In this document: positions 20,163 through 52,446 of the stretch, piece by piece
Position numbering within the stretch: position 1 is the stretch's first letter
Layout: each line of letters begins with the position of its first letter
Assembly: GCA_013306675.1 (NCBI GenBank)
Contig: JABLUY010000027.1
Location: forward strand, 124,001 to 188,000
Length of the DNA: 64,000 nucleotides
Source of the DNA: Thraustochytrium sp. TN22
Lineage: Eukaryota; Sar; Bigyra; Thraustochytrida; Thraustochytriidae
Direction of reading: 5' to 3'
Notes under the pieces: generated by a model
The model's database searches: none
What the model was told of the DNA's origin: nothing
Seen by the model: only the letters and a program-made list of their open reading frames with translations
Program-made: the position numbers and the translations under genes

Positions 20163-22842
20163 TCAGACTCTGCATGTGTCCAAACCAGGCTCGGCCTGGA
20201 GCAGCGCGACGAGCTCGTTGAGGACATTCTTGCGCCTGTCGTGGTCAACCTTGACGAGTTGCGCGCGAACGCTCGCGGCGAGCGCGCGCGCAAGGCCGGC
20301 GTCGCTCTCATCGGTGTTCGACCTCGCACTGTTCTCCACCTCTACGTCCTCCTCCGCCTGGGCCTCCTTCGCCTCGTCTTGCGCGCTGCGAGCAGGTCGC
20401 GCTCGAAAGTAGCTTTCGATCTTGCCGGGGCCCTTGCTGCTGGTGCCCTTGGCGCCGTTGCTCTTGATGTTGGCCACGCTATCCGGAGCAGCGGCCGACC
20501 GCGGTGGCGCGAGCTGCTCGTGGCGCGCGAAGAAGGCCGTCAGCGCGACGGCGGTGAGATCCACGGGCTGCGCTGCCTGCACACTCTTTCGCATCCACTT
20601 GGGGAGGTGAGCCTGCACGTTGGGGCGCTCGAAGCGAGCGTCAAGAAAGATAACAGCGCCGTGGTCATTCTTGTGGCGAATGACGCGGCCCGCAGCCTGG
20701 TTGAGCGCGCGGTACGCCTGCTGTGCGTACCAGTCGGCGCCGGAGAGCGCGACCGTGGCGCCGGCCGTGCGCTGCTGGTCCTGAAACTCGCGCTGCAGCT
20801 GGACCGCGAGCTCGCGGGCATTGGGGTATGGGATGCCGCACATGAAGACGGCGCGCGCCGCGGCGTCAGAGAAGTTGATGCCCTCGCTGAGCTTGCCGCG
20901 AAAGACGCCAAAGAAGAGCGCGCCGCGTCCCGCCGCAATTGCCGCCCGGTACTCGTTCATCTGGGCGTCGAAGCCGGCGCCGGCGCCGGCGCCGGCGCCG
21001 ACGCCGCCCTCATCGTCGTCGTTCGCGTTGGCCGCGGCACCGCCGCCGCCCTCCACGAAGAGACCCGGCTTGGCCTGCTGCAGTTGGGCCCAAGTCGGCG
21101 AGGCGCGCCACCGCTCCAGACAGGCGCGCATGAAGGAGTACGACGGGAAGAAGCACAAGGCGCCGCCCGGCACGGCCGCGGCCAGGCGCGCGAGAGCGCA
21201 GCCGAGCGCGTCCTGGTACTCGGGCCTGGACTTGTTGGCGAAGACGCCCTCGAGGCGCACGAGGCCTGCGCCGGCGCCCGGCGCCAGGGCCTGCGGCATG
21301 ACGCCGGCCCAAAGCTGCTTGCGCACGTCGATTACGTGCGGCGCCTCCAGCGTGAAGCGAAACTCGGTGCCGAGCTCGCTCGCGAAGGACGAGAGCGGCG
21401 CGAGCGTGCCGCTCGTGAGCACCACTGAGTGACACGCGCGCGCCAGCGGCTGGAAAGCGGCCGCCGCGTTCAGGCACCAAAAGCACAGCTGCGGCCCACC
21501 AGTCCCAGGCCCGCCACGGCTGCTCCCCTCGCGAACCACGACGCGGTAGTCCGCGGCGAACTCGCGGCTGTCGGCCAACATGAAGCCGAGCGCACCGAGC
21601 AAGCTGTCCAGGACGCCGCGGCTCAGCGGCGGCAGCGGCGGCGGCGCCTCGCCGGCCTCGCGGCCGGGCGCCGCAGCGCCCGTCTCCGCCTTGAGCGCCT
21701 CCGCAAAGAGCTTGCGCACCGTGTCGAGGGCGTCCTCGTCCAGGTCGCAGCGGAACTCGAGCTCGCGCAGCGCGTCGGTGCCGGAAATTGCGCGCGGGCG
21801 CCCGCGACCTGCCTCGAGATGCGTGCGCGCCCAGCGCGCCAGCTTTTGTACAAAGTCCGCCAGCAGTGAGAAGCTGGCCTGCTGGTCCAGCGCGCCGTGC
21901 GCGGCGAGCTCCTCGAGCTCGGAGCGCACCTGGTCGAGCGTGGCCAGCGCGACCTCGGCCGAGGCGGCGCTGCGGCAGGTGTCTGCGATATTGTGCGCCT
22001 CGTCGATCACCACGACGGCGCCGCGCAGGTCAATGTTCATGGCCTCGCGCGCCGCCGGGTCCACCAGGTAGTTGTACGGACAGAAGATCAGGTCGCTGCT
22101 GGCGGCGTCCGCGAGCTCGCGACTGCCGAAGTAAGGGCAGCACCGCATGCGCTGGCCGGTCTGCACCAGGTCCTCGATGTCCCACACGGGCTCCTTGAGC
22201 GCCGCGCGCAGCCGCGAGCCCGAGCTCGGCTTGAAGTAGCCGCAACCTGGGCCCTGCGCCGAGAGCAGCCGCCGGCACTCCTCGTTGCGCGCCGCGCCGC
22301 CGGCGAACCGTCGCTGTCGCGTCACTTTGCCGTTCACGCAGTACTGCCTGCGGGACCCGAGGATGGTCATGCGTACGTCGCGCGTCAAGGCCTCGGGGCA
22401 CTGTCGCAGCTCCGCCACGAGCTGCGCCAGCTGGCTGTGCGTGCGCGACGCGATGAAGACGCGCGTGCGCTTCGTCGCCCTGGCGAAGCCCTCCTCGCCG
22501 GCGCCCCGCTCCATCTCGCCGGCCCCTTGGAAGATGCGCAGCGACGCCGGGAGGAGGGCCGCCTTGCGCTCACGCCGCGCCGCGTCGCCGTGCACCGGGC
22601 AATCCTCGCTGATGGCCGCAGTGCGCTTCTTGCTCGCGCTGACGGCCGGCGCCTGGGGCCGCGGCGCCGGCGGCGTGTTGTGGTCAAAGTCCTCGTCGTC
22701 CGAGGCCCCGAGGCAGAAGTCGGGCGGCGTCGTCCGCCGACGCGCCGGCTGCGTCTGGCTCACGTCCGCGAAGTACTTGCTGCTGGGCGGGCTCTCTTGG
22801 GCAACCGTGGCGGCAGGGCACGTGCAATCCTCCTTGACCGGA

Positions 22843-22878
<36 letters not shown>

Positions 22879-23186
22879 ACGGCGGGCTTCTTTTGCGCCG
22901 CCCACAGGGCGCCGGCGGCCTCGTCGGCCTCCTGCGCTGCGGCAGCCTTGGCCACGGCGGCCGCCTCGGCCACGGCTGTCACTTGCTGGTGCTGCTGCCA
23001 CGAGAGCACGCCGCAGAGCGCCGCGAGGGCCTTGCCCGTGCCCGTGGGCGACTCCAGCAGCGCGTTCTCGCCGAGCCGCAGCGCGCCCAGCATCTTGGCC
23101 ATGAGCGCCAGCTGCGTTGGGAACGGCCGCTTGCCCGCCGGAAACTGCACGGGCACCGACGCCACGCGCAGCGCCTGGCCCTCCAT
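20163..23186 (-). CDS. BRIP1: FANCJ/BRIP1-like XPD-family DNA helicase
   Basis: This 1,007-residue protein is a superfamily 2 iron-sulphur helicase. It begins with the Q-like VQFPAGKRPFPTQLALMAKM, then Walker A SPTGTGKALAALC (46-58), motif Ia FIASRTHSQLAQL, and the four-cysteine iron-sulphur region (QYCVNGK, EECRRLL, GPGCGYF, MRCCPYF). The DEAH box is VVVIDEAHNIAD (about 392). Motifs V and VI are GKLSEGINFSD and QAAGRVIRHKNDHG. The domain order and ALCGVLSWQ after Walker A match FANCJ rather than XPD or RTEL1. FANCJ unwinds G-quadruplexes and acts in crosslink repair. Oddities: the invariant Thr/Ser of Walker A is Ala (GKA), and a GPGKIESYF segment near residue 920 resembles a PCNA-binding box without the Gln. 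The start is the ATG at 23186; upstream sequence is low-complexity. Confidence 0.9.
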
Positions 23187-23918
23187 CCTTCTCTGCGCGC
23201 GCCCGCGCGCCCGCCGCCGCTTCGCGCTCTGCTGCGCGGCCCCGTCGCGCGCCGCGGCGGCGGCACTCAAGTTGGGTTGCTTTCGTGCGACCGCAACGCG
23301 GCAACTCGCTACCAAAGCAAAGCAACGCCGCCGCGAACGTGAACCTAACCACCGCTGCGGCGATGGAGAAAGTGCTGACGCGAGCTCTCACGCGCTCTCA
23401 CGGTTCTCACGATGCTCACTCGCCGACGGAGGCCGGACTGCCTGCCAGTGATGACTGTGCGCAGCGAGCAGCCGCAGCCGCGAGATGCGTGTACGGTGAC
23501 GTGGTACTGCAAGGACGAAAAAGGACAAGACAGCAGGCTGAGCGGAGCCCTGGCCGTCAACGGCGTCAGTGCCGCTCGACCTGCGTTACGGTAGGCATAC
23601 CGGAACGTCGGATTTAGACCTACCGTCCTGAGCCTGCCAAGCAGTGGAGAGAGGTCTGCGCACGCGCATGCCAAGCTCATTTATTTTTTTTCAGTATTGG
23701 CCAACTGACAAGTGCTGCACGTGGCACCGCAGCCTGACAGCTCCTGTAGGGCAGCCCTGGGCAGCCCTGGACAGCCCTGGACAGCCCTGGGTAGCCCTGG
23801 ACCGTCCTGGACCGTCCTGGACCGTCCTGGGCAGCAGCCCTGGGCAGCAGCCCTGGGCAGCAGCCCTCGGCAGCCCTGAGCAGCAGCCCTGGGCCGCCCT
23901 GAACAGCTCTGCGATCCA
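23187..23918. repeat. Upstream gap of helicase gene with 10-bp minisatellite
   Basis: The region lies between the helicase start and the stop of the methyltransferase gene, both on the minus strand. Between 23746 and about 23905 it carries roughly 16 imperfect copies of a 10-13-bp unit (GCAGCCCTGG, GGACCGTCCT variants). Apart from this minisatellite I see no gene. Confidence 0.75.
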
Positions 23919-29600: not shown

Positions 29601-29667
29601 CCGGCAGAGTCGAAATATCGTCTGAGCGCGCCGCGACGGGCGGGCGCGCGGAGGGGTGGCGGACAGG
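26646..29667. other. 3-kb divergent gap with local duplications
   Basis: This long spacer separates the channel and myosin genes. It contains: a purine-rich GCAAGGC/GCGAAGC stretch (27015-27125); a repeat GGCCACTGCCAGTGCTACCA at 27317 and again at 27594; a fragment of the channel gene (27540-27592); a 15-bp tandem duplication (27724-27753); repeated blocks near 27687 and 27810 sharing GTGTTGTGA; a (CGAG)n run (28618-28655); and a CATCG pentamer run (29402-29462). No complete gene is recognised. Much of 28.1-29.6 kb is extremely GC-rich, presumably myosin upstream sequence. Confidence 0.6.
27540..27592 (-). pseudogene. Duplicated 5' fragment of the channel gene
   Basis: The minus strand here repeats the first 16 or so codons of the channel gene at 26645: AAGGCGCAGGTGTCCGTGGC and ATGGACGCCGACGG are identical. 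It differs by a 3-base insertion after the start (MTTSPKAQVSVAMDADG versus MTTPKAQVSVAMDADG). Homology stops abruptly at GACGG and the frame ends a few codons later. It is a partial duplication, not a gene. An alternative is a paralogous first exon, but no matching downstream exon was found. Confidence 0.7.
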
Positions 29668-32600
29668 ATGGAGGCGCCGGCGAGCGCGCTGCAGGAGGGC
29701 ACGCGCGTGTGGCTGGCGGGCAACAGGGACACCTGGGTGCTGCACGAGATTACGACACGCGTGGGCGATGTGGTGAAGCTGCGGCCGGCCGAGGGCGGCG
29801 GCAAGACGCACACGGTGGAGCTGTCGCATGAGACGCGCAAGCGCATGTTCGTGGCGAACCCGCGCGTGGAGCCGGACATGACCAATCTGAAGCACTTTCA
29901 CCTGCCGGGCATCTTGCACAACCTCAAGGAGCGCGCGCAGGCGGACGAGCCGTACACGTTCATGAGCCAGGGCGTGCTGGTCGCCATGAACCCGCTGCGG
30001 GAGGTGGCGGACCCGGAGGGCATCTTGGGCGAGCCGTCGGCGGTGAACGTGCCGCACCCGTACGCGATCGCGGAGTCGGCGTACCAGCAGCTGGCGTTCA
30101 ACCTGCGGCGCACGGACGAGGACTCGGAGACGCCGGTGGACCAGTCCATCATCATCGGCGGCGAGAGCGGCGCGGGCAAGACGACGAGCGCCAAGATGGT
30201 GCTCAAGCACCTGGCCTCGCGCAGCACGGCCGCCAGCAAGCGGGATGCGGACCTCGACGAGCGGCTGCTGGAGAGCAACCCGATCCTCGAGGCCTTTGGC
30301 AACTCGGTGACCTCGCGCAACCACAACTCGTCGCGCTTCGGCAAGTTCATGAAGCTGCACTTTGCCGAGTCGCAGTCGTCGAGCAAGAAGAAGAAGAAGC
30401 GCCGCCAGGGCGGCGAGCTTAGCATCTTCGGCGCCAGCGTCGACACGTACCTGCTGGAGCGCTCGCGCGTCACGCACCACGTGCACGGCGAGCGCTCGTA
30501 CCACGTCTTCTACCAGCTTGTGCACGGCGCCGACGCCGGGATGCGGTCCCGCCTCTCTCTTGGCGACGACCCGTCGAGCTTCGAGTACCTGGTCTCGCAG
30601 GAGCCCTCGCTGGGCCACGGCGGTGGCGGCGGCGGCGGCGGCGGCAAGCGCGCGCTCGCCAAGCTCACGGGCGGCAAGGCCGGCAAGAAGCAGCAGCCGC
30701 ATGCGGCGCGCAACGCGCACATGCCGACGCCGGACTCGGACGCGGCGCACTTCGCAGAGCTGGTGCGCGCGCTGGAGCTCATCATGGGCGCGGCCGGCGG
30801 CAGCGAGGAGGAGGAGGACCCGGACCAGGAGGACGACGGCGGCGGCGTGGAGGGCATCTTCGGCGTGGTGGCGGCCGTCCTGCACCTGGGCAACGTCCGG
30901 TTTGTGGATGAGGACAGCGCGGGCGGCAACGCGGCGGCCGTGGCGGACGCGGAGCCGCTGGAGCGCGCCGCGTCCCTCCTCGGCGTGCCGGCGGACGACC
31001 TGCTGCGCACCTTCACGGACGTCTCGGTGCAGACGGTGGGCGAGCGCATTGTCAAGCAGCGCGACGCGCGCGGCGCCAAGTTCGCGACGGACGCCGTGGC
31101 CAAGACCATCTACGTGGGCCTCTTCCAGCACCTGGTGCAGCGCATCACCATGTCCCTGAGCGCGCGCGGCGACATGACGGACCTCCCGTTCATTGGTGTG
31201 CTGGACATCTTCGGGTTCGAGAGCTTCGAGGTGAACGACTTCGAGCAGCTGCTCATCAACTACACGAACGAGGCGCTGCAGAGCTGCTTCAACGCGCAGA
31301 TCTTCCAGGCCGAGGCGGCACTCTTCGAGCGCGAGGGCCTCCTCGTGGCGGAGGGCGAGCGCGAGCCGCCGGCCGACAACCACGAGTGCATGGCGCTGCT
31401 GGAGGGCGGCGAGGGCTGCGTGGGCATTCTGCCGTGCATCGACGCCGAGGCGCGCGCGCCGGGCGCCGACGATGAGCGGTTGAACGCCACCTTCCACCGC
31501 GAGTTCCGCGCGCACCCGCGGTTCGCCAAGGTGCACCCCAAAGACGCGCGCAGCTGCTTTACGGTGCGGCACTACGCGGGCGAAATCAAGTACACGGTGG
31601 GTTCCTTTTTGAGCAAGAACTCGGACGACGTGCCTGCGGAAGTGGGCGAGGTGCTGGGCGCGAGCGCCAGCACCCTGGTCCGCGCTGTCTTTGCGGCGTC
31701 GCTCGAAGACGGCCGGCAGCGCAAGAAGAAGAAGAAGGCCGGCGGCGGCAGCAAGAAGAAGAAGAACGCGACGCGGTCCGTGACGGGCAAGTTTCAACGG
31801 CAGATGAAGTCGCTCATCCAGGAGCTCAACTCGACGCGGTGCTCCTTTGTGCGGTGCGTCAAGCCCAATGCCAGCATGCAGCGCGACGAGGTGGGCGGTG
31901 GCCGCGGCGCGGCGCGCGGCGCCATGGACTGGCTCGACAACACCTACATCATCCCACAGCTGCTCAACCTGAGTGTGCCGCAGACGGCCGAGGTGCTCAA
32001 GGGCGGCCTGCCGACGCGCGTGGACTTTGCCGTCTTTCACGAGACGTACGCGCAGATGCTACCGCGCGATGCCCTGGACATGTGGGAGGACATGGCGGCC
32101 GGCGACCCGCGGCGGTTCGTGGAGGGCCTCTTTTACGCCTACGGCATCGACCGCGACTCCTTCAAGATCGGCCGCACCAAGGTCTTCTTCAAGGCCGGCA
32201 TGCTGGACCGCGTGCACGCCGTGCTGCAGGGCGCCGTCTCGGGCCGCGGCCTGGACGACGAGGTCATCGAGCGCTTCAAAGAGAGCTTCTCCCGCGCGCG
32301 CTGGCGGCGCATCCGCGTCAAGCTGCGCATGCTGGGCCTCCTGCAGCTCGCGCTGCTGGACGCGCGCGACAAGCGCGTGCGCGCGGCGCGCCAGCGCGAG
32401 GAGGCCGAGAAGCAGCGTCGCGAGATGGAGCTCAAGCTGGAGCTGCGCCGCGAGCGGGAGGCCCGCATCGCCGAGCTGCTCAAGGCCACCACGGACGACA
32501 TCGCGGAGCTCAAGCGCGTGCTGGCGGCCCTCGAGCACGAGCTGCGAGGCGCCGAGACGCCCGAGGAGCGCGAGCAGCTCGAGGAGAAGATCGACCGCGT

Positions 32601-34245
32601 GCGCGCGCAGATCGCCGACGCCGACCTCAAGGCCAGACGCATGTCGCTCTCCGTGAGCCGCTCGCGCCGTGCCGACTCGCTCGCGCGCCGCAGCGCGCGC
32701 TTCTCGGTGGCGCGCGGCGCCGCGGGCCGCCGCGGTGGCGGCGGCGGTGGCGGCAGCCGCGCCGCCCGCCTGTCCGCCCGCCTTTCCATGGACTCGCGCC
32801 GCGGCTCGCTCGCGAGCCGCGCCTCGGTGCGCCGCGGCTTCCGCAAGTCTGTGGCGCGTGACTTCCAGCCGCCCCCGGAGGACGAGAGCGACCCGCCCAT
32901 GGTGGTGCCCGACGGCGTGGACATTTGCCTCACGCCGCCCCGAAAGGCTTCCGCCGTCTCCCGCCTGCTTTGTATGGCCTCGCGCACCCGCAACCCGAGC
33001 TCCGACCCGACCGCCCAGACCGACGACAACCACTGGGACCCGTGCCGCCTGACCATGATCGGCTACCAGGTGCGCATCTTCCCGCCGCCCGGCCCGGAGG
33101 AGGCGCGCGTCTTGGAGCACTGGCGCGGCGAGGGCGTACCTAGCAGGACCTACCAAATCACCGACAAGTCCACCATCAAGGCCGACGAGACGGCCATGGA
33201 CGGCAACGCCTATATCATCGGCAAGAAGTACATGGGCTTCGACTACTTTGGCGTACCGCGCGAGATGGTGCGCGAGGTCTTCCGCGTCCGCTTCGCCGAC
33301 GATGGCTACCTGCGCGAGTTTGAAAGCCGCTTCCAGGCCGCCATGGAGGCCTACGTCAAGGAGCGCGCCAGCGCGCAAGTCTTCCAGCACGGCCTCATCT
33401 TGCGGCACGACGGCAAGCCCGACATGGAGAAGACCCAGACCGTTCGTGAGCTCGCCCAGCTCGCACGCGCCGGCGTCATCACCCAGGAGGAGTACGAGAT
33501 GGGCCTCTTTCTGCAAATGTCCACGCAGGACGAGCACCTGCACCGCTTCGTCGCCGTGTGCGGCGAGGACGCCTACCAGGACTACAAGATCCAGTGTCCC
33601 AAGTGCGGCGAGTTCCTCTTCAACCTGCCTGAGGACCCTCTCGAAGAGTGCCCCGAGTGCGGCTACGACGAGCTCGACACGCCGCGGGACCTCGAGATGG
33701 AGGCCGCCGAGGCGCGCGAGCGCGAGGCCCAGGCCCGCAATGCGCGCTTCAACGAGGACACTATTCACGAGCAGGAGGACTACCCCTTTTCCATCATCGG
33801 TAAGGCCGGCGAGCAAATCATCGTCGAGCACCCCACCACGTCCACGCACATGGACCCCAAGACCTACGAGCGCCGCACGATCTTCAACGTGCAGTGGGTG
33901 CGCCGCTTCAAGGGCGAGAACGACTGGGAGCGCTTTGTCATGTCGCACACCTGGGCCGAGTACCGCGACTTCTTTAACGCCGCCCTGCCCAACCTCCCCT
34001 CCGCGGATATCACCCGCCACCTCGAGTTCCCCACCCTCGAGCCCGAGGATGAATCCAGCGAGGACCTCTGCGAGGACCTCTCCATGTTCCTCATCACCTT
34101 CTTTCAAACCCTCAACGAGAGCCCGGATCTCCTGGCCATCCCCGAGATCAAGGGCTTCATGGGCTATCGCAAGCACGAGGCCACCGTCCAGAGCGTGCGT
34201 CAGGCCCTGGCCGCCGCTGCCGCCGAGGACGAGTTCGTCGACTAA
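29668..34245 (+). CDS. Unconventional myosin with zinc-ribbon and PX-like tail
   Basis: This 1,525-residue protein has an SH3-like N-terminus (10-60) and a full motor domain. P-loop GGESGAGKTTSAK (164-176), switch I NHNSSRFGKF (218-227), switch II DIFGFESFEVNDFEQ (513-527) and actin-site FVRCVKPN (727-734) are intact. Loop 2 is unusually basic (KKKKKAGGGSKKKKN, 686-700), and a Gly/Lys-rich insert lies near 317-342. The converter ends near GRTKVFFKAG. The lever has at best one degenerate IQ site, followed by a charged helix (about 900-1000) and a basic Ser/Arg/Gly linker. The tail has a conserved-looking block with YIIGKKYMGFDYFGVPREMV, a four-cysteine ribbon (CPKCGEFLF...CPECGYDEL, about 1310-1332), and a PX-like region with FNVQWVRRFKGENDWERFV (about 1405-1510). 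PX-tailed myosins are known from stramenopiles; lipid binding is inferred. The start is the ATG at 29668. Confidence 0.92.
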   Translation: MEAPASALQEGTRVWLAGNRDTWVLHEITTRVGDVVKLRPAEGGGKTHTVELSHETRKRMFVANPRVEPDMTNLKHFHLPGILHNLKERAQADEPYTFMSQGVLVAMNPLREVADPEGILGEPSAVNVPHPYAIAESAYQQLAFNLRRTDEDSETPVDQSIIIGGESGAGKTTSAKMVLKHLASRSTAASKRDADLDERLLESNPILEAFGNSVTSRNHNSSRFGKFMKLHFAESQSSSKKKKKRRQGGELSIFGASVDTYLLERSRVTHHVHGERSYHVFYQLVHGADAGMRSRLSLGDDPSSFEYLVSQEPSLGHGGGGGGGGGKRALAKLTGGKAGKKQQPHAARNAHMPTPDSDAAHFAELVRALELIMGAAGGSEEEEDPDQEDDGGGVEGIFGVVAAVLHLGNVRFVDEDSAGGNAAAVADAEPLERAASLLGVPADDLLRTFTDVSVQTVGERIVKQRDARGAKFATDAVAKTIYVGLFQHLVQRITMSLSARGDMTDLPFIGVLDIFGFESFEVNDFEQLLINYTNEALQSCFNAQIFQAEAALFEREGLLVAEGEREPPADNHECMALLEGGEGCVGILPCIDAEARAPGADDERLNATFHREFRAHPRFAKVHPKDARSCFTVRHYAGEIKYTVGSFLSKNSDDVPAEVGEVLGASASTLVRAVFAASLEDGRQRKKKKKAGGGSKKKKNATRSVTGKFQRQMKSLIQELNSTRCSFVRCVKPNASMQRDEVGGGRGAARGAMDWLDNTYIIPQLLNLSVPQTAEVLKGGLPTRVDFAVFHETYAQMLPRDALDMWEDMAAGDPRRFVEGLFYAYGIDRDSFKIGRTKVFFKAGMLDRVHAVLQGAVSGRGLDDEVIERFKESFSRARWRRIRVKLRMLGLLQLALLDARDKRVRAARQREEAEKQRREMELKLELRREREARIAELLKATTDDIAELKRVLAALEHELRGAETPEEREQLEEKIDRVRAQIADADLKARRMSLSVSRSRRADSLARRSARFSVARGAAGRRGGGGGGGSRAARLSARLSMDSRRGSLASRASVRRGFRKSVARDFQPPPEDESDPPMVVPDGVDICLTPPRKASAVSRLLCMASRTRNPSSDPTAQTDDNHWDPCRLTMIGYQVRIFPPPGPEEARVLEHWRGEGVPSRTYQITDKSTIKADETAMDGNAYIIGKKYMGFDYFGVPREMVREVFRVRFADDGYLREFESRFQAAMEAYVKERASAQVFQHGLILRHDGKPDMEKTQTVRELAQLARAGVITQEEYEMGLFLQMSTQDEHLHRFVAVCGEDAYQDYKIQCPKCGEFLFNLPEDPLEECPECGYDELDTPRDLEMEAAEAREREAQARNARFNEDTIHEQEDYPFSIIGKAGEQIIVEHPTTSTHMDPKTYERRTIFNVQWVRRFKGENDWERFVMSHTWAEYRDFFNAALPNLPSADITRHLEFPTLEPEDESSEDLCEDLSMFLITFFQTLNESPDLLAIPEIKGFMGYRKHEATVQSVRQALAAAAAEDEFVD

Positions 34246-39709: not shown

Positions 39710-40320
39710 AGTTCGCTCGCGCAGTGGGCCGCGCTCGGGCCAGGCCCGGGCTGGCGCTGCGAAACTTCCCTCTCTCTCATGTCAAGCAACTGCAAGGCAC
39801 ATCGGAATCTTACTTGCATTCGTGTGTGGTTGCATGATACAGAGTACTCGCAGAGGTCGCAATTCCTTGATGGCTTGAGCTTGTGCGAATCGCTTCGCTT
39901 CGCTTCAGATCATTGTTGGCGGCCTGCGGCGGCCATCCTCCTCGTCCTTGTCCTCCTCGTCCTTCGCGGGCCGCCATCCTCCTCGTTCTCGTCCTCCTCG
40001 ATTTCGCTCGCGCGCTGGGCCGCGCTCGGGCCGCGCTCGAGCCAGGCCCGGGCTGGCGCTGCGAAACTTCCCTCTCTCTCTTTCTCTCTCACATGTCAAG
40101 CAAATGCATGGCACATCGGAATCTTACTTGCATTCGTGTGGGGTCGCATGGGCTAGGATACAGAGTACTCGCAGAGGTCGCATTTCCTTGACGACTTGTG
40201 CTTGTGCGAATCGCTTCGCTTCGCTTCAGATCATTGTTGGCGGCCAGCGGCGGCCATCCTCCTCAACCTCGTCCTTCGCTGGCCGCCATCCTCCTCGTCC
40301 TCGTCCTCCTCGTCCTTCTC
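39710..40320. repeat. Tandem duplication of about 300 bp beside the PP2C-kinase stop codon
   Basis: Two copies lie in direct order. CAGGCCCGGGCTGGCGCTGC occurs at 39741 and 40043 (302 bases apart), and CACATCGGAATCTTACTTGC, GAATCGCTTCGCTTCGCTTC and CATCCTCCTCGTCC blocks recur at matching distances. The copies differ by small insertions and substitutions. The second copy ends at the TGA of the gene at 40321, so on the minus strand the array forms its 3' flank. Confidence 0.9.
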
Positions 40321-43300
40321 TCAAAAGTTCTCGAACCAGACGCCAGGGGCAGCCTCGGCGGAGCCCGAGTCGATGGTCTCGCCGCGCGGGGTGGGCGTTG
40401 CGAGAATGTCGTGCAGAGCAGCCTGTGCGGCGTCGCGCAGAGGCGAGGGCGTTGTGCCCGCGCGGATGGCGTCAAAGTCGACGCCGGAGAAGAAGGGGTG
40501 GCGGCGCGTGTCGTCGAGGTTGGCAAGACGTTTGGCCGGCTGCGGCTGGAGCAGGTCGTGCACGAAATCGCGCGTGGCCTGCGAGAGGGACTTGGGCAGC
40601 TGGAGCGAGTCGGGGTCAAAAGAGGTGATCTGCGAGAAGAGGTCGGACTCGTTGAAGGGCAGAGAGGCGGTGAGCATCTCGTAGGTGAGGATGCCAAGCG
40701 CCCAAAAGTCAACCTCGAGACCGTGGCCGGCGTTGAGGACCTGCTCGGGCGCGACGTAGCCCGGGTCGCCGCACATGGTGAAGGTGCGGATGGTGGTGTC
40801 CTCGAGGTACTTTCCGCAGCCAAGGTCGGCGAGGCTGACGTAGCCGTCCTCGTTAAGCATGAGCGTCTGCGGGTTGACGGAGCGCGCGAGGATGCTGTGC
40901 TCGTGCAGGCGCTCCAGGATGATGACGATGTTGGCGGCCACGAAACGCACAACGTCCTCGCTGAGCGGCTCGGACATGAAGTCATGGAGCGGGCCGCAAA
41001 TGACGCCGGCCAGCGCGACGTGGAGGGCGTCGCGGCCGACGAAGGTCTTGAGCACCGGGTAGACGGGCGCATACGCGGACACCGCGTTCGCCTCGGCCTT
41101 GGCGGCCTCGTGGTGCGCGACGCCAAGCGCAGCAGCGGCCTTGGCGGAGGAGTTGCTGGGCGTGCGCAGCAGGGCGCTCTTGCTGTTGGCGCGGGAGATC
41201 TCGGCGACGAGCGCCGGAAGCTCGGGCACCGAGGCGATAGGCAGGAGCGCGCGGTCGCGGAGCGGCATGCTCTCGACCTTGGCGGCCTCGATGGGCGCGC
41301 GCAAGAAGGATTTGAGCGTGCAGGGCGGAGCGGCGCCATTGAGGTGCACGATGCGGTAGACGGTGGTCTCACTGGTGTGCACGAGCGCCTTGGGCGTGAC
41401 GTCCTCGAGCGGCGTGGCGAAGTCGATGCCGAGGGCGGCGCAGCGCGACGGCATCTCGGAGGCGGCGAGGCTCTCGAGCTCTCGCTTGCGGCCGTGGCGC
41501 GCAATGATGGTGGAGAGCGGCCCAAGGACCTGCTCGAAGGAGCGCTTGCTGATGTAGAAGCAGGTGGTCTTGCCGACCGCCAGGACGCTGGCGGCGCGCG
41601 GCTCGGCGTTGAGGAGCGCGCGCTCGCCAAAGTAGCCGCCGGCGCGCAGGCGCATGACCTCTTTGCCAACGGCCGGGTCGAAGTCGGCGTCGTCCTCGGG
41701 GGCGCCAATGAGGCAGCGCACCTCGCCGTCGCGCACGATGTACATGGTGTCGCCCACGTCGCCCTGGCGGATGATGGTGTCGCCGTCGTGGTAGGTGACC
41801 TCGGAGACCTGGTCCGCGAGGCGCTGGAGCTGGCCCTTGCCGAGGGACTCGAGAATCTTGACGCTGCGCAGCACAGTGATGAGCTCCTTGTTGGGGCGCT
41901 TGATGAGCACGCGCCGAAAGGTCTTGCGGCCAAGCGCCCAGAGATGGCCGTCAGTCTTGGCGACGACCGAGGCGGCGCGCGGCTTGGAATACATGAGCGC
42001 GAGCTCGCCAAAGGAAGGGTTGCCGACGTTGCCATCGCGCGCCACGTAGGTGTGGACCTTGTGGACCTCGTCGCTGCCGTCCTGGCGCAGAAAGCAGTCG
42101 TAGTCGCCGGAGCCGACGACGTAAAAGTTGTCGCCGTGCTCGCCCTGCTCGATGATGGTCTCGCCAGCCTTGACGTCCTTATGCTCAAAGGCGGCCAGCA
42201 CCTCCTCGAGCTGCATCGGGTTGAGGTGCTGGAAGAGAAAGTTGGTGGCGATGGCGGACTTGATGGCATCGAGCTCCTCGGCAGACTTGCGCGCGGGCGC
42301 GCCGGCGCCGGCGTCGGCGCCCTCCTCGTCCTCGGCGGCCTCGTCCTCCTCCTCGATGACGGCCGAAGCCTCGATGAGCGCGCGCTTGACGCGCGACATC
42401 TCGCGGCGTACGGGACGGTTCTGCTTCTCCATGGCGAGCAGCGCATCGTAGTTGCGGAAGGAGCCCGTCATGCGCAGGTCGTCCAAGCGCGGTGACGGCG
42501 TGCCGGAGAGAACGGCGCCGGCATCGACCTCGTCGGCGCGCGCCGACCCGACCGCGCTGCCGCCCTCGTGGTCCGTGAAGATGACGATGGCGGTGATGTC
42601 GTCGGTGCGCACCTCGTAGTGCAGCCAGAGCTTGTACGACTCGGTGACGAGCGCACGCGCCGCCTCGTACGGGTCGGTGAACTTGGTGACCATGTCCACA
42701 ACGGTCTGCGAAGAGAGGAACTCAAAGACGCCATCGCTCGCGATGACCACGAAGCGGTCGCGCGGCAGCACGCGGCGGCGCAGCACCTCTGGGTTGGGCA
42801 CGCAGCCGATGGACTCGGCCATCTCGTCGCCCAGGCTGCGCGTGAAGGCCACGCCCGGGCAGCCCTTGTTGGGCAGCCAAAGCCGCGGCGGGTCCCCGCC
42901 GTCATCCTCCTCCTCGCCCCAATCCTGCGCGTTTGGGTCGTACGGCTTGAAGCCCTCCAGCTGGTCCATGGTCATGACCACGGCGCCTGCTGACTTGCAG
43001 CGCTCGCGCTCATCCGCGCGATACGGCGTCTGGTCCGCGCTCAGCGGCTGCGCCACGATGCGGCCGCCACCCATGTCGGTGGCCAGGACAGCGCGCGAGT
43101 CGCCCACATTTGCCACGACGAGCTCGTCGCCCACGAAGAGCACCGAGATGCACGTGGTACCGGCGAGTGTGTCGTCAAAGTACGTGGGGCCCTTGCGCTT
43201 GCGCTTCTGCTTGTGCATCTCCTTGTTCACCTTGACCAGGGACTCCTCGAAGGCTGTCTCGGGCCCGTCGCGCAGCTGCGGGTGGCCCACCATGTACTTG

Positions 43301-43743
43301 CAGAATTTGTCCACGGCGAAGGTGCTGCACTCCGTGCCGTAGCGCCCGTGGCCGTCGAAGACACCGAACAGGCTCAGCTCGGGGTGGTCCGGCCCGAGGT
43401 CTGGTGCAACCAGCAAATTATCCTGGTTCTTCTTGCTCAGGTCCTCCGGGTAGAAGCCGCTCTGGCACACCCAGCCATAGCGCAGCTTCATGATGTGCTC
43501 GCCTGCCTTGCTCGCCAGCTTGCGCGACTGCGCGCCCTCCGACGATCGTGTGCGCCCGGACACCTCCAGCCTGCTGATGGCCAGGAACTTCTCGTCCTGC
43601 GTCAGGCCATCCTCCACGTCCGGCTCGGGCGCTGTGCACTTATCCAGCGTCTCCGGGATGAGCGCCGTCGCCAGATCCTCCGCGCTCGTCTTGGCCGCCT
43701 TGAGCTTCGACACCGGGATGGGCTCTGTGCGCTGCGCGTCCAT
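40321..43743 (-). CDS. PP2C phosphatase / two cyclic-nucleotide domains / kinase-like fusion
   Basis: This 1,140-residue protein joins four modules. A PP2C phosphatase occupies about 85-400: LFGVFDGHGRYG, VANVGDSRAVL, FTRSLGDEMAE and VVIASDGVFEFLS supply the metal-binding aspartates. Two cyclic-nucleotide domains follow (about 515-765) with phosphate cassettes FGELALMYSKPRAASVVA and FGERALLNAEPRAASVLA; both keep the Glu and Arg, and the PRAA form matches PKA regulatory subunits more than PKG. The C-terminal kinase-like domain keeps a DLG and GDPGYVAPEQV, but the catalytic loop reads LARSVNPQTLML, with no HRD aspartate, so phosphotransfer is doubtful. The same architecture is known in plants (At2g20050 type) and other protists. 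The start is the ATG at 43743; the frame continues 15 codons to a non-ATG codon, so an extra 5' exon is possible. Confidence 0.92.
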   Translation of the reverse strand: MDAQRTEPIPVSKLKAAKTSAEDLATALIPETLDKCTAPEPDVEDGLTQDEKFLAISRLEVSGRTRSSEGAQSRKLASKAGEHIMKLRYGWVCQSGFYPEDLSKKNQDNLLVAPDLGPDHPELSLFGVFDGHGRYGTECSTFAVDKFCKYMVGHPQLRDGPETAFEESLVKVNKEMHKQKRKRKGPTYFDDTLAGTTCISVLFVGDELVVANVGDSRAVLATDMGGGRIVAQPLSADQTPYRADERERCKSAGAVVMTMDQLEGFKPYDPNAQDWGEEEDDGGDPPRLWLPNKGCPGVAFTRSLGDEMAESIGCVPNPEVLRRRVLPRDRFVVIASDGVFEFLSSQTVVDMVTKFTDPYEAARALVTESYKLWLHYEVRTDDITAIVIFTDHEGGSAVGSARADEVDAGAVLSGTPSPRLDDLRMTGSFRNYDALLAMEKQNRPVRREMSRVKRALIEASAVIEEEDEAAEDEEGADAGAGAPARKSAEELDAIKSAIATNFLFQHLNPMQLEEVLAAFEHKDVKAGETIIEQGEHGDNFYVVGSGDYDCFLRQDGSDEVHKVHTYVARDGNVGNPSFGELALMYSKPRAASVVAKTDGHLWALGRKTFRRVLIKRPNKELITVLRSVKILESLGKGQLQRLADQVSEVTYHDGDTIIRQGDVGDTMYIVRDGEVRCLIGAPEDDADFDPAVGKEVMRLRAGGYFGERALLNAEPRAASVLAVGKTTCFYISKRSFEQVLGPLSTIIARHGRKRELESLAASEMPSRCAALGIDFATPLEDVTPKALVHTSETTVYRIVHLNGAAPPCTLKSFLRAPIEAAKVESMPLRDRALLPIASVPELPALVAEISRANSKSALLRTPSNSSAKAAAALGVAHHEAAKAEANAVSAYAPVYPVLKTFVGRDALHVALAGVICGPLHDFMSEPLSEDVVRFVAANIVIILERLHEHSILARSVNPQTLMLNEDGYVSLADLGCGKYLEDTTIRTFTMCGDPGYVAPEQVLNAGHGLEVDFWALGILTYEMLTASLPFNESDLFSQITSFDPDSLQLPKSLSQATRDFVHDLLQPQPAKRLANLDDTRRHPFFSGVDFDAIRAGTTPSPLRDAAQAALHDILATPTPRGETIDSGSAEAAPGVWFENF

Positions 43744-46172
43744 GATCCCGTCTGGCTGCACGTCCTCCGCGAAGAACTTTTCCGGCAACTCTGCAGCGCC
43801 TAGCTACGCTCGGCCCGCCGGGCCTGGCCTGCCTCGGCCTGCCCCGGCCTGTCTGCTTGGCGCGCGCGCGCGCCGCCGCCGCCGCTACCGCCGCCGCTAC
43901 CGCCGCCGCCGCGCCCGCGCAGCGCAGCGCAGCGCAGCGCAGCGAGAGCGACCGGGCTTGCGCTGCTGCCTCGCGCGCGCTTCGGCGGCAACGAGATCAG
44001 CGCACGAGGCCGAGCCAGCTAGCTACTAGGCCTAGCTAGAGCTGTGCTGCTTGCTCTTCCTCCGCGCCGCAGCGCCTCGGCGACTGCTCGCCCGCCCGCC
44101 CGCCCTTGCGTCGCCCGCCCGCTCGCTAGCTTGGGCTCCTACGCAGGCGCCTCGCTCGCCGCGCGCCTCCCGCTCGAGGTCCGCCGCGCAGCCGCGCCGC
44201 GCCGCGCCGCGCCCCGCCGCGCTGCGTCGCGTCGCGCGGAGTTGGTTGGGTGGATGGATCCTGGCCAGGCGGAAAGCACCGCCGCAAGGCTGAGCTGACG
44301 CCGCCGCCGACGCCGCGAAGCGAGCCCGAGCGGCTCGCGCCGCAAGGAAGCTAGCTCTGTCTCTCGGCTGCGCGCCGCGCTGCAGCGCCGGCACGCGCGC
44401 CAGCCCTCGGCGCCCGAGCCCGAGCCCCGCCGCGCTGCTGTGGCTGGCCGTCTGGTCGGCGATGCAATTTCGAAAGCGGCGCGGCACAGCACCAAGACAG
44501 CCCGCGTCGCGCTGCGACGCGACAGCCGGTCGGCACTGGCTGAAGACAGACAGTCAGGGCGCTGCCAGCTGAGCTCGACTCCACGCCGGGAACGCGGCCA
44601 AGACGCAGGCAGACAGGCTGCCTCAGGCAGGCAGGCAGGCGCGCAACCTCAGTTCCGCGCCAGGCAGCTTCCGTTCAAATTTTCAAACCACTTGCCGCCC
44701 GGCCGCGCTAGCCGGCCGCCACTGGCCGCGCTGCCTTGCAGGCTGTTGCTCCGCGGACTCCGCGCCGCCTGCCCGCGGCGGCCGCCAACCGCTCGTTGCG
44801 CCTCCGCGGCTCCTCGTTCGAAGAACTTGTCAGTGAGGCCTGCAGGTCCGAGTCTGCTGTCTGCCAGTCACGGTGGCGTCTGCTCCAATGTTCTCCGCGA
44901 CCAACTGCCATCACCAGCCGCGGCACTGGCCAGCGCGCTGCAGAGTGCAGAACTCAGCCTGAGCCGGACACGGACAGCCGGCGCGGACTCGCGCGGACTC
45001 GGCGGCCTCCGAGTCTCGGCTCCTCAGGCTCGGCAGCGCAGGAAAACAGAAGGAAAACAGAGCTTCGAAGCGAAGACCCGCCGCGACCCGGGAAGCGCCG
45101 CCGCCGGCCAGCACCGCGGCCAGGCGCGACCAGGCTGCGCGCGGGCGGGCCTGGTCAGTGCAGAGGTCGCCGCCGCACTGCCGCAGCGCAGCAGCACTCG
45201 CCGCGGCGCGTGAACGGCTTCGAGACGCGCCGGACGCCGCCGGATGCGGCCGCTCGGCCGCCGGACTATGCGAGGATAGGCCGCGCGGCCGCGGCGCGCT
45301 GCGTTTTCATGTTGAGCTGCACTGCGAACGCCATCACCGGCATCCTGGCCAGCCACCTGATCAGTGCCACTGTGCCAGGCTGCCAGCCAGAGGCGGGCGA
45401 GGCGGGCGGCGGTTGGGTGGTGGATGGATGATGGATGATGGTGAGAGCTCCAATTGGCAGGGGACGACCGGTGGCGGCGGCGGCTGGCAGATGGAATCAC
45501 GGCGGGACCTCGAGGGATTTATTAGCAGCGTCCTCTTGACTCCGCAGCACGCGGATGGCAGATGCAACGATGCGTCGGCTGACTCGGCTCCGAGTCCGAG
45601 TCCGAGGTCGTGCCGGTGGTGGCGGGCGCTTCCTTCCTCGCGGCCTTGGTGATGCGAGGCTTGGACCGTCCCTCCGTCCAGAATGAAGCTTGGGTGGAAG
45701 CAAACGTCGCGAGAGCTAGCTAACTTACGTCAAGTCTCACGAAGCAGCCAGGAAGGCAAGCGCGCACTGGCCCAGTTACGCTCAAGCGCGCTCAACGCCC
45801 TCAAATGTCAGCCCCAGAGCCATGGCCACTGCAAGGCGAGCTCTAGGCGAGCTCTGGCAAGCAAGCACTCAGAGTCAGTGCTCACGTCTGACAGCTGCCA
45901 TCATCACAGCTTCGCTTGGCCGAGCACATCTCTCGACCTCGAACCGGGCGGCCAGCTCGAGCTGAGTCGAGCAGCACAGCAGCACAGCAGCACGTCGATG
46001 CTCTCGCTCTGCTCGTGCCTCCAGTGCCGCCGCGCCGCACCTTGCGATGACGTGTGAGTGAGATCGCTTCGCTTGGCAATGCCTTCGTGCAAAGCTCGGT
46101 CGCGCGCAGGCAGGCAGGCAGGCAGGCAGGCGGGCGGGCGGGCAAGCGCGCGCGCGAGGCAGGGCAAGTAGG
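43744..46172. other. 2.4-kb gap upstream of PP2C-kinase and methyltransferase genes
   Basis: This is a divergent spacer. It has GCAGC (43917-43945) and GCCGC runs, CAGGCAGG runs (44600-44640, 46108-46140), and many frames of biased composition. Two short stretches look mildly protein-like: plus 45310-45430 (MLSCTANAITGILASHLISA...) and minus 45522-45700 (KPRITKAARKEAPATTGTTS, then DSDSEPSQP). Neither can be tied to a gene model. Otherwise nothing is recognised. Confidence 0.5.
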
Positions 46173-48798: not shown

Positions 48799-49542
48799 GC
48801 GCCGCGCCGCCGCCCGCCGCGCGCGCGCCCGCCCCGCTCGCCCGCTCGCGCGCGCGCGCCGCTCCCGCGCGCAGCTCCGAGTTCTGCCGCAGCGCCACTG
48901 GCGCGGGGGCCTCGCCGTTTTATACGCCCTTCCGGACGCCGCCCGTGTTTCAAACGCCGCCGCGACCGAGCCGGCCGGCTGGGGACCCCGTCCGCCGCCC
49001 GCACCCCCACCTTAGTCCTTCGCGCCGGCTTGGGGCGCCCGGCGGGGGGGGCACGGTGCACGTGAAGGGCCCGAGCGCATTTTGAGCATGGATGCGGATG
49101 CGAAAGCAAATTCAAAAGCGCGCCGCGGGGGCTCGGGCGACGGAGGCAGGCGGGCGGCAGGCCGCGCGGCGCGCCCCGCTCACCTGGCCCGGCGCGGTGG
49201 CCGCGGCTGCCGGTCCGCAGCGTGGATCGCTTCGAAGGGCGCGGCACGCTCGGATCTGCGTTGACCTGCGTGCGTGCGTGCTCAACGACGACTGTTAGAG
49301 AGGAGCGCCCGCGCGGCGGCCGTGCAGCGGCGACGGCGGCGGCGGCGGCAGACCGACCGCTCGCTCGCTCGCGCGCGCGCGAGACGGCAGACGCGCCGTA
49401 GCACGCTGGTCCACGTCCTCCTGCCCCCTGCGCAGGTCGCCTGGGCTGGGCTGGGCTAGGCTAGGCTAGGCTAGGCGGACTCGGGCTGGGCTCGGCCGGC
49501 CGGCCGGCCTGGGAAGGAGCGCGCTCGCTCGGCCGCGACACT
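48799..49542. promoter_or_regulatory. Divergent gap between REXO4 and Vps10 genes
   Basis: This 744-base shared upstream region is very GC-rich. It has a G8 run (49044-49051), a GGTGCACGTGA element (49055-49065), GCGCGC and CGCTCG runs (49360-49385) and a GGCTG/GGCTA pentamer run (49442-49478) just before the Vps10 gene start. No additional gene is supported. Confidence 0.55.
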
Positions 49543-52446
49543 ATGCAGCCCGTCGCGGCGTGCGTCGTGGCGACGCTGGCGCTGCTGGTGATGGTGCAGC
49601 TCTTCGCCGCAGCGGATGCGCAGCTGTTGAGCCAGGGGACCACCAGCAGCACCAGCAGCAAGGGCGAAGTCGGCGACCCTGGCCGCATTGTGCAGTACAC
49701 GTACGAGCTGGGCGGCGAGGTGGACGATATGCGGTGGCTCGGGGAAGACAAGAATGCGGTGCTGGTGCTGACGAGCAGCATGCAGGTGCATCGCAGCGCA
49801 GACGGCGGACTGAGCTTCCAGGATCTGGGCCCGGAGCTGTCACGCGCCAGCGCCGAGCAGCCGGTGGCCGCCGAGGACTTGCGCATCCGGCGGCTCGTGC
49901 AGCACCCAAGCCGGCCCGAGATCGTCGTGCTCTTGTCGGAGGGCGTGGTGCAGTACTACTCGTCGAACTCGGGTGCGAACTTTAAGGCGTTCCGCACACC
50001 AGCGCCCGTGGCGGACTTCAGCCTGCACCCGCGCATGGAGGCGCTCATGATGGTGACGGCGTACTCGGCCAAGTGCAAGATGTACCCGGGCAGCGGCACT
50101 CCGAGCAGCCCAAACCAGGCAGACGATGGCAAGGACGCCAGCGGCAACGCGGCGTGCTACAAGGCGCTCTACGTCACAACGAACCACGGGTCGAGCTTCC
50201 AGCTGCTGCGCAAGTATGTGGTGCAGGCGGAGTGGCACGAGCGGCTGCTGGCGAGCGAGCAGGGCAGCGTGACGTCGTGGACCTCGGGCGAGGCGCCGCG
50301 CAGTGCCGACGAGGCCGGCTGGCACCTGCGCGGCGCGGACGCCGGGCCGCGCCGCGACACACGAACCATCCTGTGCACGGCGCTGCCGCTGGAGCACCGC
50401 GGCGACCAGCGCTTCGGGGTCTGGGACGCCGAGGTGAGCCTGGTAGAGAGCGAGGACCTATTCAAGTCGGAGCGCACGCTCGTGGACGGTGGCAACAAGT
50501 TCATCTTTACCAAGCACTTTGTCTTCGTGGCACAAATGGCCACGCGCGGCAGCTCAGAGGTCCGCCTGCAGCTCAGCACGGACCGCGGCGAGACCTTCCA
50601 CCCGTCGCGCATGCCCTTCCAGATCACGCAGCACAGCTTCACGGTGCTGGACTCGAGCTCCGGCGTCGTCTTCCTGCACGTCGACCACGTCGGCGGCGAC
50701 CACTCCAAGTACGGCCACGTCTACGTGAGCGACAGCACCGGGGCCAACTACTCGTTCTCGCTGCGCGACAACGTGCGCGCCTCCAACGGCAAGTGCGACT
50801 TTGAGCGCGTGCTCAGCCTTGAGGGCGTCTACGTGGCCAACTTCGTGCACAATGTGCAGGAGCTCGAGAGCTACGCGGCCATGCGCGGGGACCTCGACGA
50901 GGACCCAGCCGCGGCGCGCGCGGCAGCCTCCAAGCTGCGCCAGCCGGCGGCCGAGCTGCGCACCGTGGTGTCCATGGACCGCGGCGGCGAGTGGAGTCTG
51001 TTGCGCCCGCCCGCCACCGACGTCTATGGACGGCCCATCCGCTGCGCCGCCGCTGACTGTGGTCTGCACCTGCACGGCCACTCGACGCACTTTGCGCCGG
51101 TGTACAGCTCGCCGTCCGCCGTCGGCCTCATCCTCGGCGTCGGCAACGTCGGCTCGCATCTGTCGATGCGCGCCGGCGAGGTCTCCACCTACCTGTCGGC
51201 CGACGGCGGCCTCACGTGGGCCGAGGTGCGCCGCGGCTCGCACATTTACGAGATCGGCGCGCACGGCGGCCTCATTCTCATGGCGCGCGACGATGAGGCC
51301 ACCACCTCGCTCGTGTACTCATGGACGCACGGCCGCGAGTGGACGGAGATCCAGTTCTCCAAGGAGCCCATCGACGTGGAGAACATCATCGTGGAGCCCA
51401 CGGCCGTGGGCCGCGTCTTCCACATCTTTGGGTCGGCCCCGGACCGCGACGACGCCGGCGTCCTCATCACGCTCGACTTTTCCGGATTGCACGAGCGGGA
51501 GTGCACGGGCGCGTCCATGCCGCAGAACCCATCGAGCGACTACGAGCTGTGGAGCCCGCGCGACTCGGCCGCACAGGGTTTCGATGCCGCCGCGTCCTGT
51601 CACCTGGGCCGCGAGGTCGCCTACGTGCGCCGCAAGGGCGACGCCGCCTGCTTCACGCCCATCGACTTTGAGGCGCGCCGCTTCGTGCGCAACTGCGCCT
51701 GCTCGGCGCGCGACTACGAGTGCGACTTTGGCTTCCGCCGCTCCATCGCGCATGGCCCATGCGTGCGCGACCCGGCTGTCTCCAACGCCACGCTCGCGCC
51801 GCCCACGGAGTGCCCGGCCGCCGGCTTCTACACCGTCAGCAACGGCTACCGCCTCGTCGGCGGCAACTCGTGCGAGGGCGGCAAGAACCTCAACCCGACC
51901 GTTTTCACCTGCAGCCGCGGCCTGCTCGGCGTCAGTGGCCATGGCTGGCTCGTCATCCTGGTCATTCTCTGCATCGCCGCGCTCACGCTCTACCTCAACA
52001 AGCGCAAGCAGTCCGGCCCGCTCGACCCCTTTGGCACGCAGCACTTTGGCGGCGACGACGTCAAGTCCTGCTGGGACTTTGCGCGCGACTTTGTGCGCGC
52101 GCGCGGCTCCCCCTCGCAGCTCTACCGCTACGCGCGCATGCGCTCGCCCTCCAACTCCATGAACTTCACTGACCCGGACTTTGGCGCCGACGGCCCCGAC
52201 GGCCCGGAGGACCCGGACGACCTTGACTCCAGCAGCTTCCAGGCGCGCAGCTTTGTCGACGACGAGGACGACGAGGCCTTTCACGCCAAGGAGGCCGAGC
52301 TCATCTCCACTGTTGTCGATGCCAAGCCGCTGCGCCATCGCGCCTCCAACCCGGCCGCCTCCGTCCCTGTTCTTCGGGCGCCGCCTACCGCGGCTCCCAT
52401 TGATGTCTTGGGCGACTCGAGCGATGACATTGGTGACGCGATCTAA
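49543..52446 (+). CDS. Vps10/sortilin-family sorting receptor
   Basis: This 967-residue type I membrane protein begins with a signal peptide (ACVVATLALLVMVQLFAAAD, 5-24). The lumenal part is a ten-bladed Vps10 domain with Asp-box-like turns such as LSTDRGETFHPSRM and LSADGGLTWAEVRRGSHIYE, and WTHGREWTEIQFSKEPIDVE, which are family hallmarks. The cysteine-rich 10CC module follows, with NCACSARDYECDFGFRRS and ECPAAGFYTVSNGYRLVGG. One membrane helix lies at about 800-818 (WLVILVILCIAALTLYLNK). The 145-residue cytoplasmic tail has acidic clusters (DDLDSSSF, DDEDDEAF) suited to retromer or adaptor binding. Such receptors carry hydrolases from Golgi to endosome. There is one Vps10 domain, as in animal sortilin, not two as in yeast Vps10. 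The start at 49543 gives the signal peptide directly. Confidence 0.93.
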   Translation: MQPVAACVVATLALLVMVQLFAAADAQLLSQGTTSSTSSKGEVGDPGRIVQYTYELGGEVDDMRWLGEDKNAVLVLTSSMQVHRSADGGLSFQDLGPELSRASAEQPVAAEDLRIRRLVQHPSRPEIVVLLSEGVVQYYSSNSGANFKAFRTPAPVADFSLHPRMEALMMVTAYSAKCKMYPGSGTPSSPNQADDGKDASGNAACYKALYVTTNHGSSFQLLRKYVVQAEWHERLLASEQGSVTSWTSGEAPRSADEAGWHLRGADAGPRRDTRTILCTALPLEHRGDQRFGVWDAEVSLVESEDLFKSERTLVDGGNKFIFTKHFVFVAQMATRGSSEVRLQLSTDRGETFHPSRMPFQITQHSFTVLDSSSGVVFLHVDHVGGDHSKYGHVYVSDSTGANYSFSLRDNVRASNGKCDFERVLSLEGVYVANFVHNVQELESYAAMRGDLDEDPAAARAAASKLRQPAAELRTVVSMDRGGEWSLLRPPATDVYGRPIRCAAADCGLHLHGHSTHFAPVYSSPSAVGLILGVGNVGSHLSMRAGEVSTYLSADGGLTWAEVRRGSHIYEIGAHGGLILMARDDEATTSLVYSWTHGREWTEIQFSKEPIDVENIIVEPTAVGRVFHIFGSAPDRDDAGVLITLDFSGLHERECTGASMPQNPSSDYELWSPRDSAAQGFDAAASCHLGREVAYVRRKGDAACFTPIDFEARRFVRNCACSARDYECDFGFRRSIAHGPCVRDPAVSNATLAPPTECPAAGFYTVSNGYRLVGGNSCEGGKNLNPTVFTCSRGLLGVSGHGWLVILVILCIAALTLYLNKRKQSGPLDPFGTQHFGGDDVKSCWDFARDFVRARGSPSQLYRYARMRSPSNSMNFTDPDFGADGPDGPEDPDDLDSSSFQARSFVDDEDDEAFHAKEAELISTVVDAKPLRHRASNPAASVPVLRAPPTAAPIDVLGDSSDDIGDAI

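Follow-up and report, generated by a model that had tools for sequence, protein, structure and literature searches.

Proteins that join a PP2C-type phosphatase to cyclic-nucleotide-binding (cNMP) domains and a kinase-like domain form a known family in water moulds and plants, and the architecture with an inactive kinase has been in print since 2010. In that year the Phytophthora infestans kinome described two of them (PITG_08304 and PITG_09375) with inactive kinase, phosphatase and cNMP domains, mentioned the same combination in plants, and proposed that the kinase-like domain may help the phosphatase to bind its substrate (PMC3019232). In Arabidopsis the family is represented by PP2C19 (At2g20050), placed in PP2C clade L (PMC9346291). 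Its phosphatase domain was found to be necessary and sufficient in phototropism, and point mutants or deletions of its kinase and cNMP domains still complement (PMC11775391); since these forms remain functional, control by cyclic nucleotides is not demonstrated in the phototropism experiments of that report. Rice PKG is the ortholog of PP2C19 and 65% identical to it (PMC11775391), and according to a summary of Shen 2019 cGMP promotes its kinase activity and inhibits its phosphatase activity (PMC11638329). Five STKc-CAP-PPM proteins of P. sojae (Ps354449, Ps544740, Ps568223, Ps313333 and Ps480075) are likewise presumed by their authors to be bifunctional (PMC10925823). The locus described here bears on this dispute, as far as these accounts go, between bifunctional kinase-phosphatases (rice, P. 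sojae) and phosphatases whose kinase is dead (P. infestans, Arabidopsis).

The window analysed here comprises 64,000 nucleotides of Thraustochytrium sp. TN22 and carries on its minus strand a gene of this kind (Table 1). In the list of open reading frames it runs from an ATG at 43743 to a stop that ends at 40321 and encodes 1140 residues; on re-reading this frame, the ORF, coordinates and motifs given in the initial annotation were found to be as stated there. All three Pfam matches of the product exceed the curated cut-offs (PP2C, 2.4e-33; two cNMP_binding stretches, 4.5e-33; Pkinase, 2.5e-27), and an N-terminal PP2C, two PF00027 stretches and a C-terminal kinase fold without catalytic residues are found, as in the PITG_08304/PP2C19 type. 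Compared by description, PITG_08304 and PITG_09375 resemble it in combining PP2C, cNMP and inactive kinase domains; in PP2C19, of 1094 residues, the order of PP2C, two cNMP and kinase domains and the size are also alike (PMC11775391), and the P. sojae proteins, compared by domain content, share the PPM/PP2C, CAP (cNMP) and STKc domains (PMC10925823). A 767-aa open frame lies antisense to the gene (window 40192-42495, plus strand); it is probably a by-product of high GC and not a gene, and a long open frame in such DNA is therefore by itself weak proof of coding. The coding status of the gene itself rests on homology and on codon-position GC, which at the third position is 0.83-0.93 by region. 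PKG chains of the PDB (5dyk, 5ezr, 4rz7, 9p74 and PKG 1) also have cyclic-nucleotide-binding domains (CNBs) followed by a kinase fold, but show YRDLKPEN and RSA or RTA cassettes where the window protein has LARSVNPQT and PRAA; we take these chains to be without a PP2C domain.

Table 1. Features of the gene and its neighbours, in window coordinates.
Feature	Positions	Strand	Basis
Whole coding sequence, 1140 aa, PP2C-CNB-CNB-predicted pseudokinase	40321..43743	minus	ORF + Pfam
PP2C phosphatase region, residues about 80-400	42544..43506	minus	Pfam PF00481 at 104-369; PDB matches PPM1K, PP2C56/77/16
Linker, residues 401-484, partly acidic, RPVRR at 443-447	42292..42543	minus	
Tandem cyclic-nucleotide-binding domains, residues 485-754	41482..42291	minus	Pfam PF00027, 2 stretches; PDB PKA RII-beta
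Degenerate kinase N-lobe region, residues 755-897	41053..41481	minus	
Kinase C-lobe, residues 898-1110	40414..41052	minus	Pfam PF00069 at 899-1085; own-genome AGC profile
Catalytic loop LARSVNPQT, residues 952-960, Ser955 at HRD Asp position	40864..40890	minus	
DLG, residues 973-975, DFG Asp kept	40819..40827	minus	
WD40 protein, BRWD1-like N-terminal domain, open to window edge	2-3820	minus	
Three-repeat Myb protein	17394-18749	minus	frame match
DEAD_2 helicase	20166-23387	minus	frame match
Myosin head	29626-34242	plus	frame match
Sortilin/Vps10	49465-52443	plus	frame match
Mitochondrial carrier	61607-62728	minus	frame match

We consider it probable that the protein is a PP2C whose action is set by cyclic-nucleotide binding to a tandem like that of PKA regulatory subunits (PKA-R), with an added PKG/AGC-derived kinase fold that has given up phosphotransfer. 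A cyclic nucleotide would bind the tandem as sensor, and this binding would set the activity or the location of the Ser/Thr phosphatase, presumably the working enzyme of the molecule; the kinase fold would no longer transfer phosphate and may act as a docking or regulatory module, or may be drifting. Support computed here comes from the domain order, the lost catalytic residues, the Glu and Arg of the nucleotide cassettes, the PP2C core and a paralogue that is also without the HRD Asp. Relative to the published family, this paralogue, nine internal controls that have the HRD Asp and the commonness of the RAA cassette in the genome are new.

In the phosphatase domain the motifs D130-G131-H132-G133, S303-L-G-D306 and D381-D382 are all present, and D130-G131-H132-G133, D306 and D381-D382 are presumably the PP2C metal-site motifs. 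The PP2C had been described initially as intact, and its core motifs are indeed kept, apart from Gln107, which lies in an NQD motif (found in the paralogue too) at a position that we take to be usually acidic in PP2C, and Glu in PP2C-alpha. When collections of genome contigs and viral contigs were searched, the PP2C-cNMP-kinase fusion was absent, and matches were confined to the PP2C part (12 and 3 loci, respectively).

The kinase domain is only partly recognisable. The Pkinase match spans profile positions 65-263 only (residues 899-1085), and the first part of the N-lobe is absent from it. The loop reads L952-A-R-S-V-N-P-Q-T960. Eight intact AGC kinases from this genome served to build a reference profile; matched against it, the kinase part gave one domain match of 162 bits, with the loop aligned ungapped to iiyRDlkpen. 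The best-matching PDB chains, which carry the name cGMP-dependent protein kinase and are presumably Plasmodium proteins, gave the same register. From these ungapped alignments it follows that Ser955, Asn957 and Thr960 occupy the sites of the HRD Asp, the catalytic-loop Lys and the Asn. The loss of the HRD aspartate proposed in the initial annotation is thus borne out. The catalytic-loop Lys is replaced as well, DLG preserves the DFG Asp, and neither the AGC-profile nor the PDB-chain alignment places another Asp in the catalytic position. A glycine-rich loop was not recognisable in residues 755-897 by alignment or AGC profile, the MAFFT alignment of the N-lobe being unreliable and used solely on this point. 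With Ser955, no recognisable glycine loop and PRAA in place of Thr/Ser-bearing cassettes at both sites, the protein departs from an active PKG. Single-sequence structure prediction of residues 746-1140 had a mean pLDDT of 34.9 and gave no usable model.

Other parts of the kinase fold are retained, namely D973 of DLG, T989 of RTFTMCG (the activation-loop Thr), APE at 998-1000 and D1012. Lys811 in TLKSF is, as a guess, the VAIK or ATP lysine. For PP2C19 a 'catalytic D923' has been named 14 residues before T937 (PMC11775391); the spacing is 14 in the paralogue as well, which fits D923 being the DFG Asp and not the HRD Asp. With the DFG Asp, the activation-loop Thr and a candidate ATP Lys kept, nucleotide binding or residual activity may be possible. 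These retained residues (the DLG Asp, Thr989 and APE) also speak for a kinase that works without the HRD Asp, in a bifunctional, cyclic-nucleotide-switched kinase/phosphatase, as do the cGMP-promoted kinase activity reported for rice PKG, which sets that protein apart from the predicted dead kinase of the window (PMC11638329), and the two activities presumed in the oomycete STKc-CAP-PPM proteins (PMC10925823). The replacement of Asp, Lys and Asn, the unrecognisable glycine loop, the long kinase branches and the inactive status assigned to the proteins of P. infestans and plants (PMC3019232) nevertheless make an active kinase distinctly unlikely. The rice report, known through its summary, may go some way towards supplying the active homologue that would count against a pseudokinase.

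The gene was also compared with others of the window's own assembly (37.9 Mb, 453 contigs), in which a 3044-aa open frame that matches PfaA suggests a thraustochytrid. In the own-genome search 40 of 279 candidates were scored, giving 57 matches, from which 15 regions were chosen for reading; further CNB-kinases may exist in the genome beyond those scored. A second gene (contig C79, L021:1846-5199; 1117 aa), 39% identical overall to the window gene, has PP2C, two CNBs and a kinase fold by Pfam; at the positions that are RDLKP and DFG in active kinases it carries RGVSP and DFR. The HRD Asp is present in all nine other CNB-plus-kinase genes read (C222a, C222b, C425, C244, C55, C246, C99, C30 and C427), an architecture taken from Pfam for C222b, C425 and C427 and from own-genome search matches for the other six. 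The remaining five regions comprise C127, a kinase without a tested CNB, and C431, C334, C13 and C453, taken as CNB-only. Two divergent members without the HRD Asp beside nine CNB-kinases that have it favour the dead-kinase view in this lineage.

Some of these genes deserve separate mention. At contig C222:353000-360000 (L027), a 1165-aa frame with CNB cassettes continues beyond the point where a kinase begins whose intact reading lies in a different frame, which suggests an intron or an assembly frameshift. In C222a the kinase and the CNBs are in different frames, with an intron or a frameshift between them. On contig C427 (L029:1691-5353, plus strand) a 1220-aa protein has two CNBs, a kinase with HRDIKPAN and a C-terminal PP2C, and looks like a separate kinase-phosphatase fusion of other domain order whose kinase, judged by its motif, looks active. 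PP2C19 is found at the plasma membrane (PMC11775391), and the window copy starts MDAQ. No Met-Gly start was found upstream of it by an ATGGG scan from 43743 to 46000. The paralogue starts MGC, which we take to be a possible lipidation start.

The two kinase folds have diverged further than the rest of the proteins. Identity between the window gene and its paralogue is 49% in the PP2C (149/304) and 43% in the CNBs (114/263), 32% in the kinase C-lobe (63/196) and 23% in the N-lobe region (20/88). When intact kinases of the genome are compared in 28 pairs, C-lobe identities are 35.9-54.9%; towards intact kinases the window gene shows 33-37% and the paralogue 29-36%, and in this comparison the two show 33% to each other. 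The resemblance between the two dead C-lobes thus does not exceed their resemblance to intact kinases, which fits fast divergence. The kinase tree lists end branches of 3.9 and 4.5 for the two genes (the paralogue at 4.17 as drawn), with a median of 0.8. Six extra loci were tried in this tree, of which L014 and L016 were left out because no catalytic motif was read in the frame taken, possibly a frame or strand error without bearing on those kinases. That the two pseudokinase domains are sisters was considered and is not established, the branches being long, support 66/17 and the C-lobes no more alike than either is to intact kinases; C-lobe identities and tree are compatible with loss of the HRD Asp in one event or in two.

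Such low identities and long branches could also mean that the kinase fold has no role left and is eroding, in which case the protein would be a PP2C equipped with a cyclic-nucleotide sensor, its tail in decay. The complementation by kinase deletions in Arabidopsis (PMC11775391) and the higher second-position GC of the N-lobe region (0.531, with 0.500 in the linker) agree with this. The C-lobe, on the other hand, is uninterrupted, its second-position GC (0.413) is near that of PP2C (0.424) and CNB (0.400), its terminal GVWFENF resembles, by eye, the C-termini found in several of the genome's intact kinases, and an inactive kinase is found in the same combination in plants and oomycetes (PMC3019232), so that we regard simple decay as unlikely.

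The cyclic-nucleotide cassettes, FGELALMYSKPRAASV at 578 and FGERALLNAEPRAASV at 705, each have the expected binding-site Glu and Arg, and PRAA stands at 588-591 and 715-718; that both sites are intact and of PRAA form had been proposed initially and is upheld. PRAA fits PKA-type (cAMP) sites, and the PKG cassette has Thr or Ser. In the PDB the tandem is matched best by PKA RII-beta (2.4e-50), then by PKG chain 5dyk (7.7e-48), and PKG 1 chain 3shr matches part of it (4.9e-31). In the intact CNB-kinases of the genome 14 cassettes were listed by a simple pattern, two hits outside CNBs (C246, C427) and one in C30 being left out; divergent sites, such as those of C30 and C222a, escape this pattern. 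Half of the listed cassettes (7/14) have the RAA form (three in C222b, two in C425, one each in C244 and C99), two have Thr or Ser after the cassette Arg (C244, C99) and five have other forms (C55, C246, C427). PRAA is therefore no distinguishing mark of the window protein in this genome. Matches to class III cyclase domains at 21 places and to PDEase_I at 14 places of the genome count in favour of a cyclic-nucleotide-responsive protein and tell nothing on cAMP versus cGMP. Judged from the cassettes, cAMP appears the more likely ligand; the initial preference for cAMP over cGMP gains from PRAA at both sites and is weakened by the RAA form in the intact kinases and by the cGMP response reported, in summary, for the rice relative.

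Tandem cNMP domains with PRAA cassettes are also a property of PKA regulatory subunits, and ahead of the first CNB, where an RRxS/A inhibitor site would lie, the sequence is RPVRREMS (443-450). The protein might accordingly act in the manner of PKA-R, its linker binding a PKA catalytic subunit in trans as a pseudosubstrate and bringing the phosphatase to the PKA complex. Several observations lend it some colour. PKA RII is the best solved-structure match of the tandem. RPVRR recurs in the linkers of both paralogues, ahead of the first CNB helix by 58 and 45 residues, and in two R-like proteins encoded in the genome RRKSVSA and RRVSVSA stand 39 and 37 residues ahead of theirs. There is also a 338-aa AGC-like kinase frame (L020), PKA-C-like by eye. 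A shared 5-mer, however, arose in 570 of 20,000 linker shuffles, and the residues after RPVRR differ and fit a pseudosubstrate poorly; we hold this reading to be highly improbable. A cAMP-switched phosphatase in which pseudokinase and R-like linker together hold the PP2C off or recruit the PKA catalytic subunit is very unlikely too; if true, one and the same molecule would, under cAMP, couple the release of a kinase to the control of a phosphatase. A literature search on thraustochytrid PKA listed nothing relevant.

The phosphatase set by a PKA-R-like tandem and carrying a kinase fold without phosphotransfer is thus the reading we retain. The main idea of the initial annotation, a cAMP-gated phosphatase with a pseudokinase rather than a PKG, is probable: the lost catalytic residues, their loss in the paralogue, the inactive kinases of the literature and the sufficiency of the phosphatase domain in one Arabidopsis assay argue for it, and its cAMP part is the weaker one. 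Regulation of the phosphatase by the pseudokinase, also part of that idea, is putative, and PP2C19 lacking its kinase domain still complements (PMC11775391).

Immediately downstream of the gene a stretch is present in duplicate, at window 39726-39954 and 40028-40275; its pieces show 93-98% identity and stand about 300-320 bases apart (repeat families D2, D4 and D5).
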